DNA from: Propionibacteriaceae bacterium
GTDB lineage: Bacteria > Actinomycetota > Actinomycetes > Propionibacteriales > Propionibacteriaceae
Direction of reading: 5' to 3'
NCBI GenBank assembly: GCA_020438595.1
Contig: JAGQUI010000055.1
Location: forward strand, 1 to 10,799
DNA: 10,799 bases
The notes under the pieces were generated by a model. That model was not told the origin of the DNA, made no database searches, and saw only the letters and a list, made by a program, of their open reading frames with translations. The stretch's first letter is position 1, and each line of letters begins with the position of its first letter. Both the position numbers and the translations under genes were made by a program. Below are positions 3,047-10,062 of this stretch, piece after piece.

Positions 3047-4039
3047 ATGAGTGTCTCGGAACAGCCGGCCCGCCTGGCCGTGCGCAGCGTCGACGACCTG
3101 GTCGGCCTGGTGCCCTACTTGATCGGATTCCATCCCGAGGAGTCGCTGGTGGCGATGCTGCTCGAGAGTGGCCGGGTGGTGGTCACCGCCCGGGTCGATC
3201 TCGACGCCGTCGCACAGCCCGGGGCGCTGGACGCCCTGCTCGCGAGGTTGTTCGACCGCTTCCCGCACGCCGAGGGCTGGTTCCTCGCCTACACCGATGA
3301 CGACGAGGTGGCCTGGAACGTGCTGGCCGAGTGCGTGGAGCTGGTGGGGTTCGTCCGGCTCGGTAGGGTGCTGCAGGTGGGCAGCTGCGAGTGGCGGGCC
3401 GACTGCCCAGACGGCCCGGTCGGTGCGATCACCGGGGAGGTCGGTTCGGTGGCCGCGGCAGCGGCGGTGCTGGGCCTCCCGGCCCGGGCATCGCGGCGCG
3501 ACCTCGCCGCCGGTCTGGCCGGTCCGCCCGACGCAGAGGTGGCCGGGCTGCTCGAGCAGTTCGAGGCCGTCGGGACGGAACTGGAGGCGATCGGCCCTCG
3601 GGGGCGCAGGCGCCTGCTGCGCAAGCTGCTGGGCACCAAGGGCCCGGTTCCCGTCGACGACTGCGTCCGGCTCGCGCTGCTCGCCAGGCGTACCGAGGGC
3701 CAACTGGCGGTGCTGCGTGGGCTCGCCCGCGACAACGCCGACCAACAGTTGGAGCTGTGGGCGGCCGTGGTGCGGCACTGCCTGGTCGATCAGCGCCCGC
3801 ACGTGCTCGGGCTCGTCGGCATGGCGGCCTGGCAGACCGGTGACGGCGCGCTCCAGGTGGTCTGCCTGGAGGAACTGGACCGAATCGATCCCGCGGTGCC
3901 GATCGCGGCGCTGCTGGAGCTGCTCAACCGGAACGTGGTGCCACCGGACGCCTGGCTCGAGCTCCGTGACGTGCTGCTGGGCCTGCTCGAGGCGGAGGTC
4001 ACAACTGCTGACCGACCAGGTAGCCCACGAGGTAGGTGA
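3047..4039 (+). CDS. DUF4192 domain-containing protein
   Basis: This 330-residue protein begins with the hallmark of DUF4192: VRSVDDLVGLVPYLIGFHPEESLVAML (residues 12-38, interrupted here only by my choice of ends). It is followed by a paired strand with VVVTARVDLD (44-53). The family is common in Actinobacteria and has no established biochemical role that I know of. The protein has no signal peptide or membrane segment, so it should be cytoplasmic. The C-terminal half is Leu/Ala-rich and probably helical. The ATG at 3047 has GAGG 9 nt upstream and places the conserved block at the very N-terminus, as in relatives. The frame stays open further upstream, but that stretch lies opposite the Pro-rich membrane protein gene and looks like shadow coding. 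Its last 41 bp overlap the convergent VIT1-type gene. Confidence 0.88.
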   Translation: MSVSEQPARLAVRSVDDLVGLVPYLIGFHPEESLVAMLLESGRVVVTARVDLDAVAQPGALDALLARLFDRFPHAEGWFLAYTDDDEVAWNVLAECVELVGFVRLGRVLQVGSCEWRADCPDGPVGAITGEVGSVAAAAAVLGLPARASRRDLAAGLAGPPDAEVAGLLEQFEAVGTELEAIGPRGRRRLLRKLLGTKGPVPVDDCVRLALLARRTEGQLAVLRGLARDNADQQLELWAAVVRHCLVDQRPHVLGLVGMAAWQTGDGALQVVCLEELDRIDPAVPIAALLELLNRNVVPPDAWLELRDVLLGLLEAEVTTADRPGSPRGR

Positions 4040-4712
4040 GGCCCATGGCCAGGCTGCCCACCACGACGTTGCGGATCATCGCCCGGACCGGCCGGGCGCC
4101 GCCCAGCCGGGCGCTCACGAAGCCGGTGATCAGCAGCGCGCTGAGCACGGCGGCCACGGTGAGCGGCAGCCGCACCCCGAGCGGTGTGGTCACGATCGCG
4201 ACCAGCGGGATCACCGAGCCGGCGACGAAGGCGATCAGCGACGCCCGGGCCGCGGCCCACGGCGAGACCTGCTCGTCGGCGTCGAGGTTGAGGAACACCT
4301 GGGCGTGTGCGTCGAGGGCGGCGTGCTGGCTGAGTTCGGAGGCGACCTGTTCGGCCAGCTCGTGGGAGAGGCCACGCTCGGCGTAGTGGTCGGCCAGCTG
4401 GCGCAGCTTGCCGTGCGGGTCGGTGGCCAGTTCGTGTTCCTGCTGGCGGAGCGCGGCGAGCTCGCTGTCCTTCTGGCTGCTCACCGACACGTACTCGCCA
4501 CCGGCCATCGACAGGGCGCCGGCCACCATGCCGGCGAGGCCGGCGATCAGCAGGGCGACGGTGTCAGTGGTGGCGCCGGCGACACCGAAGACGAGGCCGG
4601 CGGTGGAGACGATGCCGTCGTTGGCGCCGAGCACTCCGGCGCGCAGCCAGTTGAGTCGCTGCGAGAGCGACTGGGTGGGAGCCGCGGCCGTGACCCCGGG
4701 GGTGATTGCCAT
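3999..4712 (-). CDS. VIT1/CCC1-family iron/manganese transporter
   Basis: This 237-residue membrane protein of the vacuolar iron transporter family probably moves Fe2+ or Mn2+ out of the cytosol in exchange for protons; in bacteria this serves metal detoxification. Helix 1 carries LRAGVLGANDGIVSTAGLVFG (residues 23-43, split by my choice of ends); Asp32 is the position equivalent to the metal-path Asp of plant VIT1. Helix 2 ends in ALSMAGGEYVSVSSQKD (66-82), with the conserved Met69 and Glu73. A soluble helical segment (about 84-145), rich in Glu, Asp and His, fits the cytoplasmic metal-binding domain. Three further helices are seen (about 155-176, 182-201, 213-234). The ATG at 4712 gives the usual family N-terminus; its ribosome site is weak (GAAAG). 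An iron box lies 38-56 nt upstream. Confidence 0.92.
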   Translation of the reverse strand: MAITPGVTAAAPTQSLSQRLNWLRAGVLGANDGIVSTAGLVFGVAGATTDTVALLIAGLAGMVAGALSMAGGEYVSVSSQKDSELAALRQQEHELATDPHGKLRQLADHYAERGLSHELAEQVASELSQHAALDAHAQVFLNLDADEQVSPWAAARASLIAFVAGSVIPLVAIVTTPLGVRLPLTVAAVLSALLITGFVSARLGGARPVRAMIRNVVVGSLAMGLTYLVGYLVGQQL

Positions 4713-4878: not shown

Positions 4879-4884
4879 TACCAT
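4879..4884 (+). promoter_or_regulatory. -10 hexamer of the leuS leader promoter
   Basis: TACCAT fits TANNNT and ends 6 nt before the GTG of the leader peptide. Transcription should therefore start at or beside that GTG, giving a leaderless leader peptide. A good -35 is not visible at 4856-4862. Confidence 0.5.
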
Positions 4885-4890
4885 GTGCGG

Positions 4891-4920
4891 GTGCGCAACG
4901 CATCACTGCTGCTTCGATAG
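4891..4920 (+). CDS. Leucine leader peptide of the leuS attenuator
   Basis: A nine-codon frame GTG CGC AAC GCA TCA CTG CTG CTT CGA TAG encodes M-R-N-A-S-L-L-L-R. Three consecutive Leu codons (4906-4914) sit just before the stop. The stop codon directly abuts a perfect 10-bp hairpin, and leucyl-tRNA synthetase is encoded downstream, which is the expected layout of a leucine-sensing leader. No Shine-Dalgarno is present, but the -10 at 4879-4884 would place the transcript start at the GTG, so leaderless initiation is likely. A competing ATG at 4883 opens a Cys-rich frame ending at 4963; it does not fit the downstream gene and would need a start site further upstream. Confidence 0.7.
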
Positions 4921-4946
4921 CCGCGGCTGCACGAGCAGTCGCGGCG

Positions 4947-4982
4947 GCCCCTGGCGAGCCTGACGGCCCGCGGGGGCTTTTT
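4947..4982 (+). terminator. Intrinsic terminator inside the leuS leader
   Basis: GCCCC (4947-4951) pairs with GGGGC (4973-4977). An inner GGC/GCC helix (4953-4955 with 4966-4968) is also possible. Five T residues (4978-4982) follow immediately. It lies 48 nt upstream of the leuS start, so it must be conditional. Confidence 0.7.
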
Positions 4983-5030
4983 CATGCCGAAGCGCAGGGC
5001 AGTGCACACCGACGAAGGAGAAACACCGAA

Positions 5031-7502
<2,472 letters not shown>

Positions 7503-8773: not shown

Positions 8774-9076
8774 TCAGCGCCGGGTGAACTCCAGCCGGAA
8801 CAGCTCGGGGCCGCGTTCCAGGTAGGCGAGGTCGAGCGCGTCGGGCGCGACCCGGTTGAGCTGGGTGAGCAGCGGCAGCGGGTCGTGGTCGACCACCAGG
8901 ACGACCTTCTGGCCGGGCTTCATGCTGGTCAGGCCACCGATGATCGCACCGTGCCGGACCACCTTGGGCAGCGAGCTCGCGAGCAGTTCCGGGGTGGCAT
9001 CGGAGGCGTCGCCGCAGCCGCAGCCGCAGCCGCCGTGCCGGGCCGGAGCCTTCGCGAGGTTGAGCTGGGTGGCCAT
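8774..9076 (-). CDS. DUF2249 domain protein with N-terminal Cys-x-Cys-x-Cys motif
   Basis: This is a 100-residue soluble protein. Residues 36-98 match the DUF2249 pattern, a TusA-like alpha/beta sandwich: LPKVVRHGAIIGGLTSMKPG, then VVLVVDHDPLPLLTQL with the typical D-H-D-P-x-P-L, then YLERGPELFRLEF. DUF2249 proteins are often found with nitrogen-oxide or haem/hemerythrin genes, but none is nearby here. Between a short Lys/Ala-rich start and the domain lies H14-G-G-C17-G-C19-G-C21-G, which could bind a metal or sulfur species. It is encoded by a GGCTGC hexanucleotide repeat (about 9013-9034). The ATG at 9076 has a strong AGGAGG 5 nt upstream, which settles the start; an in-frame ATG at 9178 would run through the DnaA-box-like inverted repeat. 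Exact function unknown. Confidence 0.85.
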   Translation of the reverse strand: MATQLNLAKAPARHGGCGCGCGDASDATPELLASSLPKVVRHGAIIGGLTSMKPGQKVVLVVDHDPLPLLTQLNRVAPDALDLAYLERGPELFRLEFTRR

Positions 9077-9082
9077 GGGCGC

Positions 9083-9088
9083 CTCCTG
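9083..9088 (-). promoter_or_regulatory. Strong ribosome binding site of the DUF2249 gene
   Basis: A perfect AGGAGG on the minus strand lies about 5 nt before the ATG at 9076. It is the best Shine-Dalgarno in the window and fixes this start over the longer open frame. Confidence 0.8.
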
Positions 9089-9143
9089 GTCGTTCTGGTA
9101 CCGCCGAAGGGTAACCCGACCGGACCTGCCGCGACGAATCGTC

Positions 9144-9180
9144 CTGTGGACAACCCTCGGGCGGTCGGGGTTGTCCACAG
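9144..9180. repeat. Perfect 13-bp inverted repeat with two DnaA-box-like sites
   Basis: CTGTGGACAACCC (9144-9156) and GGGTTGTCCACAG (9168-9180) are exact inverse copies around an 11-nt spacer. Each arm holds the actinobacterial DnaA-box form TTGTCCACA (9145-9153 on the minus strand, 9171-9179 on the plus strand). The centre is about 70 bp from the comEA start and 86 bp from the DUF2249 start. It is thus placed as an operator for one or both divergent genes. There is no T tract to suggest a terminator. Confidence 0.75.
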
Positions 9181-9218
9181 CCGGCCGGTCGGGCTGAACG
9201 CCGGCCGGGCCGGATGCC

Positions 9219-9224
9219 GATAGT
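9219..9224 (+). promoter_or_regulatory. Possible -10 hexamer of the comEA promoter
   Basis: GATAGT shares 4 of 6 bases with TATAAT and ends 7 nt before the ATG at 9232. This again suggests a leaderless or near-leaderless mRNA. No good -35 is visible. Confidence 0.35.
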
Positions 9225-9231
9225 GCAGGGC

Positions 9232-10062
9232 ATGAAGGTGGCTGCGGAAACCGCGATGAGCGATGTGGTGCGACAGCGGCTCGAGTTGCTCCTGGCCCAG
9301 GTGCCGCCCCGGCACGCGCTGGCCGACGAGGAGCCGGCCCCGGTGGCGGAACCGGTGGCGGAGCCGGTGGCCGAGGCGGTCAGGGACGGACCGGTGCCGC
9401 GACAGGCCCTGCGCGACGTCGGCGGACGTGCCGGCGAGCTCGGCCAGCGGGTGTGGGCCTTCGGTCGCGAGCACATCGCCGCCGTCGTGGTGGTGCTGCT
9501 CGTCGGGTGCGGCTGGACGGCGTACAGCCTGCTGCAGGCCCGTTCGACGCAGGTGGCCGTGGCGGCGCCGCCCTCGGTCGTGGCCAGCCCGACGCCGACT
9601 GCGACCCCGACCCCGGCGCCGACGCTGCTCGTGCACGTACTCGGCGCGGTGCGGCACCCCGGGGTGGTGGAACTCGCCGACGGCAGCCGGGTGGCCGACG
9701 CGATCGCGGCTGCCGGTGGGCTGGCGAAGTCGGCCGACCCTGCCGAACTGAACCTGGCCGCTGTGGTGGCCGACGGCTCCCAGATCGTGATCGGCACCCG
9801 GTCCAACCCGCAGGGCGAGGTGCGCGGCACCGGCGCGTCCGGTGCCTCCGGCGGCGGGTCGGCGGCGGGCGGCACCATCTCGCTGAACACGGCCACGCTC
9901 GACCAGCTGGACACGCTGCCGGGCGTCGGTCCGGTGACCGCGCAGAAGATCCTCGACTGGCGCGCCGAGCACGGCCGGTTCACCGCGGTGAGCGAGCTGC
10001 AGGAGGTGGACGGGATCGGCCCGAAGACCTACGCCGACATCGCTCCGAACGTGCGGGTCTAG
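9232..10062 (+). CDS. comEA: ComEA-type DNA-binding protein
   Basis: This 276-residue protein is a membrane-anchored receptor for double-stranded DNA during uptake, handing DNA to the ComEC channel. Domain order is a cytoplasmic N-terminus of about 80 residues with VAEP repeats (about 37-48), one membrane helix (about 82-102), a Pro/Thr linker (112-130), an SLBB domain (VHVLGAVRHPGVVEL, about 133-187), a Gly/Ser linker, and a C-terminal helix-hairpin-helix pair (about 216-274). The last contains LNTATLDQLDTLPGVGP and VDGIGPKTYADI, the hairpin GxG turns that contact the DNA backbone. The SLBB-plus-HhH layout is usual for Gram-positive ComEA; the long N-terminus is common in actinobacterial forms. 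I chose the ATG at 9232 because of the -10 just upstream; ATGs at 9214 and 9256 are alternatives. comEC follows with a TAGTG overlap. Confidence 0.93.
   Translation: MKVAAETAMSDVVRQRLELLLAQVPPRHALADEEPAPVAEPVAEPVAEAVRDGPVPRQALRDVGGRAGELGQRVWAFGREHIAAVVVVLLVGCGWTAYSLLQARSTQVAVAAPPSVVASPTPTATPTPAPTLLVHVLGAVRHPGVVELADGSRVADAIAAAGGLAKSADPAELNLAAVVADGSQIVIGTRSNPQGEVRGTGASGASGGGSAAGGTISLNTATLDQLDTLPGVGPVTAQKILDWRAEHGRFTAVSELQEVDGIGPKTYADIAPNVRV

Follow-up and report, generated by a model that had tools for sequence, protein, structure and literature searches.

The leuS gene of this Propionibacteriaceae bacterium is very probably preceded by a ribosome-mediated transcription attenuator that would respond to leucine and on which ribosomes would start at a leaderless leader peptide of nine codons. 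The window, a stretch of 10,799 nucleotides of contig JAGQUI010000055.1, holds it as a compact element that was read directly from the sequence at 4879-4982 of the forward strand (Table 1). Comparison with other leuS upstream regions strongly supports the leader, a control codon at fixed distance from the first hairpin (P1), the promoter spacing, P1, and the terminator as parts of this predicted switch, and the conservation of the last four across copies speaks strongly for the leucine attenuation, by way of the ribosome and a leaderless leader, that the preliminary description of this DNA had proposed. The element belongs to a kind of leuS attenuator that had already been predicted and is not a new use of attenuation.

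Table 1. Features of the putative leuS attenuator in the window
Feature	Positions	Strand	Basis
-10-like hexamer TACCAT, 6 nt (4885-4890) before the leader start	4879-4884	+	sequence reading
Putative leaderless leader peptide MRNASLLLR, 9 codons, TAG stop at 4918-4920	4891-4920	+	sequence reading
Putative control codon CTT, 8 nt 5′ of the P1 foot	4912-4914	+	conserved position in relatives
Hairpin P1, 11 pairs (4920-4930 with 4935-4945; loop 4931-4934)	4920-4945	+	sequence, fold, covariation
Predicted intrinsic terminator, hairpin 4946-4978 and T5 4978-4982	4946-4982	+	fold, terminator scan, covariation
Weak antiterminator candidate, 5′ side UCGCGG	4939-4944	+	longest run in the window, 6 pairs, without covariation
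Weak antiterminator candidate, 3′ side CCGCGG	4968-4973	+	longest run in the window, 6 pairs, without covariation
Shine-Dalgarno-like AAGGAG of leuS	5015-5020	+	by eye
leuS, leucine--tRNA ligase, GTG start at 5031	5031-7502	+	TIGR00396, 940.2 bits (cut-off 548.4)

The leader reads GTG CGC AAC GCA TCA CTG CTG CTT CGA TAG and thus contains the Leu-Leu-Leu run that had been pointed out before, the T5 terminator described along with it is equally present, and the estimated extent of about 90 nt measures 92 nt from 4891 to 4982. The "perfect 10-bp stem" said to begin at the base after the stop is a real stem as well but comprises 11 pairs, because the G of the TAG stop codon pairs too, and it can be called perfect over 10 bp only if the G·U pair 4926/4939 is counted. 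Elsewhere in the window, Pfam matches mark a DUF2249 protein (8774-9178, reverse strand) and a ComEA-like SLBB/helix-hairpin-helix protein (9214-10062, forward strand).

RNA folding gave a z of -2.2 (4 of 200 shuffles equally or more stable), and a terminator scan gave one site against 0.3 expected (sd 0.7), which is weak by itself. It is the conservation of the element, over fold and terminator scan, that we consider the strong evidence for it.

Occurrence ahead of actinobacterial leuS genes

We compared 290 actinobacterial leuS upstream regions, the window included, with identical copies counted once and with overlapping sets. These comprise 80 named loci, subsets of three whole-genome searches that matched 127 of 147 genomes, 134 of 246, and 108 of 246 (loci numbering 30, 28 new ones, and 30, along with 80 and 40 chosen places), the second leuS of one metagenome-assembled genome (MAG), and the window itself. 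A strict pattern of P1 and terminator, into which no leader base entered, found 109 distinct copies, and 181 of the 290 regions, duplicates included, are without a distinct copy of this kind; looser scans added few. Among the named loci, 18 of 80 carry the strict pattern, and these belong to Propionibacteriaceae, Arthrobacter, Pseudarthrobacter, Nocardioides, Thermoactinospora, and Nonomuraea.

The closest named records to the LeuS of the window are those of a Propionibacteriaceae MAG (79%) and Microlunatus endophyticus (75%), and a query with its first 215 residues found a best genome match of 93% over 214. Judged by eye, the element precedes leuS for four of the six most similar LeuS proteins (L081, L082, L083, and L085, with leaders of 9 or 10 codons) and is missing there for the other two (L084 and L086).

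A leuS covariance model built from 40 aligned copies, leader bases included, finds matches at E ≤ 1e-3 in 120 of the 246 genomes searched. At E ≤ 1e-6, 91 of 95 matches in the 246 genomes, training copies counted, sit at most 600 nt 5′ of leuS; three of the remaining four enter a LeuS-like coding sequence that is truncated where the contig stops, and for one the contig ends before any gene.

One genome (G344) encodes LeuS of both the short and the long type, with a predicted attenuator directly 5′ of each (C30:34680-34768 and C5:472929-473020), and a Propionibacteriaceae MAG carries two LeuS on separate contigs (L001 on G001:C113 and L219 on G001:C97), possibly through contamination. Seven viral contigs (L250-L256), which did not enter the comparison, encode LeuS-like proteins that are 39-60% identical to the long type of Actinobacteria.

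Control codon, leader start, and hairpins

The codon 8 nt 5′ of the P1 foot is CTT in 97, CTC in 7, and CTG in 1 of the 109 distinct copies, which is the kind of Leu codon conservation that the preliminary description had proposed to look for in actinobacterial leuS upstream regions. At five anchors this place holds something other than CTT or CTC, and all five were kept in the counts; four (L120, L127, L135, and L198) we read as P1 starts misplaced by the pattern, and L129 has CTG. Leucine is encoded at -8, -11, and -14 in 107, 99, and 90 of the 109 copies, with mixed codons at -11 (CTC 43, CTG 29, CTT 27) and at -14 (CTG 43, CTT 24, CTC 17, TTG 6). When the set is thinned to 68 copies of lower similarity, the codon at -8 is CTT in 60 and CTC in 4. 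CTT accounts for none of the 65 Leu codons in the window's own leuS and for 56 of 3151 in the leuS of 54 relatives. Of the 104 copies for which a leader start was assigned, 39 have their stop as a TAG at -2 and 61 as a TGA at +7, and since the spacing between CTT and P1 is identical for both, it is the codon rather than the stop that is kept at a fixed distance from P1.

The hexamer TANNNT, for which spacings of 5-9 nt were permitted, stands 6, 7, or 8 nt 5′ of an in-frame ATG or GTG in 104 of 109 copies (72, 31, and 1, respectively), compared with 4 and 1 of 109 in shifted frames and 1, 0, and 0 at shifted places. The assigned starts are ATG in 73 and GTG in 31 of these 104 copies, and a Shine-Dalgarno-like stretch precedes the leader in 11. 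This spacing fits a leaderless message on which the leader start codon is the putative transcript start. A simple promoter scan of the window found no sigma70-type -35/-10 pair, so the promoter was called from the -10 and the conservation of its spacing. The lack of a Shine-Dalgarno sequence at this leader had been singled out as worth attention; Streptomyces lividans leuL2, located 5′ of leuS, is already reported, in the part of the source used here, as leaderless and followed by a terminator (PMC8079986). The LeuL2 leader MRAVRLLLSEPR occurs in at least three of the genomes studied here (L243, L265, and L273, in a one-in-five sample of copies).

Both hairpins covary across relatives, a check that the preliminary description had proposed for the stems. 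Above the part fixed by the search pattern, P1 pairs covary, with 92 of 109 copies at level 6 (65.3 ± 3.1 in shuffled controls) and 98 of 109 at level 7 (68.5 ± 3.3), and none was found past the 11th pair in the 109 copies. In the alignment of 40 copies, which were hand-chosen and mostly have short P1 loops, 90.3% of cells in P1 and terminator are paired against 80.4 ± 0.8% after shuffling, and in 10 of 17 pairs both sides have changed. When the pairing partner is slid out of place, the paired cells drop to 40-54%.

A probable mechanism and its rivals

Transcription would start at or beside the GTG, and a ribosome would load on the leaderless end. With ample charged tRNA-Leu, it would clear the Leu codons and leave, upon which P1 and then the adjoining terminator would fold and transcription would stop. 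When charged tRNA-Leu is scarce, the ribosome would instead wait at the rare CTT. A ribosome usually shields ca. 12 nt beyond its A site, and at CTT it would cover the P1 foot GCCGCG (4920-4925) and release the 3′ strand CGCGGC. This freed strand might pair weakly with the terminator, at the loop or the 3′ arm, and by hindering it permit transcription of leuS. One point against this scheme is that a ribosome standing on the TAG would hide all of the 5′ arm of P1, and termination would then require its quick release.

The competing antiterminator of the preliminary description fared less well than its other parts: a conserved terminator loop favors it, but it shows neither covariation nor a clear thermodynamic switch. 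Mean terminator pairing stays at 0.91-0.95 in all modelled ribosome positions across the 109 copies and falls by more than 0.3 in five of them; in the window, it goes from 0.92 to 0.82 with the ribosome at CTT. With the ribosome-covered part removed, antiterminator folding is found in 63 of 109 copies and in 72.4 ± 3.8 after shuffling, i.e., without excess. Swapping terminators among relatives gave no sign of covariation between P1 arm 2 and the terminator (rank 0.49; 0.22 for P1 as positive control), and among 397 segment pairs in the 68 thinned copies, only the arms of P1 and of the terminator stood out (next rank 0.40). When the loop only was shuffled, runs of at least five pairs between P1 arm 2 and the terminator were present in 42 of 68 copies against 26.0 ± 3.8, with no shuffle above 38. 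YGYG, which could pair with CGCG, occurs in the terminator loop of 46 of the 68 copies (22.4 ± 3.7 after shuffling). Runs of seven pairs between the two were not in excess in these 68 copies (1 against 3.5 shuffled). A classical antiterminator is thus a weak candidate with the conserved loop as the one observation in its favor. In 31 of 109 copies the Leu codons were seen to pair with the 3′ arm of the terminator, but this was rejected as an antiterminator because C/U-rich codons pair trivially with a G-rich arm.

Attenuation could also do without a true antiterminator if P1 and terminator stack and a ribosome at CTT weakens termination merely by opening the P1 foot. The linker between the two hairpins is 2 nt long in 88 of 109 copies (with 0-3 permitted by the pattern), the distance from CTT to P1 is constant, and no covarying or thermodynamic antiterminator was found, all of which this arrangement would accommodate; the excess of YGYG loops and of runs of at least five pairs speaks against it, and we regard it as possible but rather unlikely. 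Arrest of the ribosome by the nascent peptide instead of a sensing of charged tRNA might be suspected from a short conserved ORF that ends near a hairpin. Yet, the peptides vary while one codon stays (MRNASLLLR in the window; MHGVSLELA and MFGVELKLL, noted by eye among relatives), and the control codon of the sister elements described below switches with the gene, which makes such an arrest highly improbable. An ordinary terminator of an upstream gene would have the same terminator-like form, but the hairpin stands between the leader start and leuS, a place at which it is conserved. Nor can it be the terminator of the nearest 5′ gene, a VIT family gene at 3999-4712, because that gene is encoded on the opposite strand and runs away from leuS; we give this explanation even less credence. 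The faintest chance of all is that of a T-box or another ligand-binding leader, for which one could argue from Firmicutes, where most synthetase genes are under T-box control (PMC1262725). In Actinobacteria, no classical T-boxes and only unusual ones at ileS were found according to the part of that study drawn on here (PMC1262725). Our Rfam scan gave no family at gathering score and two unrelated sub-threshold matches at E ≤ 1, and a T-box or known riboswitch was rejected.

Ribosome-mediated attenuation remains our preferred reading. It has against it that no more than 109 of 290 upstream regions and 18 of 80 named loci fit the strict pattern, and that two of the six nearest LeuS (L084 and L086) are without the element. 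Mutations of leader codons in Streptomyces coelicolor ilvB and leuA did not fit classical attenuation, as stated in the part of the source used (PMC1262725), and these results would count, with caution, against an attenuation reading of the present element.

Sister elements and known attenuators

The leuS model gave 55 further matches at E between 1e-6 and 1e-3 in the 246 genomes, a few of them at leuS. We examined 36 of the 55 (L301-L336), with genes assigned by motif and two of them via a locus shared with the set of the second model below, and these precede ilvB (15), citramalate synthase (16), leuA (2), threonine dehydratase (1), and other reading frames (2). Examples of citramalate synthase, ilvB, and leuA score above the curated NCBIfam cut-offs, and the threonine dehydratase (L332) falls under them. 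By eye, the -10 place of citramalate-synthase leaders L307-L314 is often CANNNT after a GTGGCA-like stretch, compared to TANNNT at leuS.

A second covariance model, built from 31 sister copies with neither leader bases nor leuS copies, has between one and three matches at E ≤ 1e-5 in each of 77 genomes from a set of 97 and 86 from a set of 98. Although no leuS copy went into it, this model finds the leuS element again, since at least 20 of its matches in the set of 97 genomes fall, by eye, at known leuS starts.

Slot codons were read in 58 loci (L337-L394) from the best matches of this model, some of them in its training set, and the slot position lies 8-10 nt 5′ of the model start across sister elements. 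Ahead of citramalate synthase, the slot holds ATT in 30 of 33 loci, including two (L359 and L366) whose frame was read by eye as ATT ATT, and ATC in 3 of 33; among the 391 Ile codons counted in 27 of these genes, 15 are ATT. At ilvB, GTA stands one codon 5′ of the slot in all 23 loci, and the slot codon itself is CTT in 11, CTC in 4, GTT in 3, and ATC in 2, with three rows fitting no slot. The two leuA loci read CTG CTC CTT with CTT 10 nt 5′ of the model start. A codon that tracks the pathway is hard to account for by RNA sequence alone, and the comparison suggests that a shared switch with other sensing codons also precedes other branched-chain amino-acid genes. Going further, we see an even chance that Actinomycetes use one modular leaderless attenuator for leuS, leuA, ilvB, citramalate synthase, and threonine dehydratase. 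Its single slot, placed a few nt 5′ of a P1 rich in GC, would carry in each case an uncommon codon for the amino acid of the gene in question (CTT with Leu, ATT with Ile, GTA and then mostly CTT at ilvB), and a waiting ribosome would open only the P1 foot, with little or no classical antiterminator. For citramalate synthase, we found no earlier report of an attenuator with leader peptide in the literature searched, which did not include the survey of Lopatovskaya et al. 2010; combining citramalate synthase, attenuation, and leader peptide turned up only a methanogen paper.

Leaderless poly-cysteine attenuator ORFs of mycobacteria, reportedly described by Canestrari et al. in 2020, have in common with the present element a leaderless short ORF that senses an amino acid and differ in that this is cysteine. 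The leu leader of Salmonella is a four-segment RNA switch whose leader is led by a Shine-Dalgarno sequence. Its control codons are rare CUA codons, and CUG lowered sensitivity (Carter et al. 1986, as cited in part of PMC1183508); rare Leu codons in control are thus common to it and the window, whereas it serves a biosynthetic operon and uses CUA instead of CUU (PMC1183508). Mycobacterial cys leaders lack a conserved terminator hairpin as far as the part of PMC1262725 used here goes. Actinobacterial ilvB attenuators and the Corynebacterium ilvB-II motif share the order of a leader with branched-chain amino-acid codons followed by a terminator (parts of PMC1262725 and PMC10272879) but precede another gene, and the Corynebacterium uORF of ca. 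15-17 codons spans most of P1 (PMC10272879).

The closest known systems are those of Streptomyces. Use of attenuation on a synthetase gene had been put forward as unusual, but classical attenuators were predicted 5′ of leuS in Streptomyces avermitilis and S. coelicolor already in 2005 (Seliverstov et al., part of PMC1262725). These and leuL2 share with the window leuS itself, a short Leu-rich leader, and a terminator, and in S. lividans also the leaderless start (parts of PMC1262725 and PMC8079986). The window differs by its TAG directly before P1 instead of a TGA at +7, by its own leader sequence, and by the shorter LeuS type. Beyond these two sources, no further reports of leuS leaders were recognised in the literature searched.

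The prediction made in 2005 from two Streptomyces is hereby extended to a wide set of Actinobacteria and given a codon-level signature. What makes it interesting is the codon slot, together with a switch that branched-chain genes seem to share, which would amount to a natural panel of codon-swapped switches for studying leaderless ribosomes, uncommon codons, and hairpins in high-GC transcription control, and the fixed slot makes their geometry directly testable.
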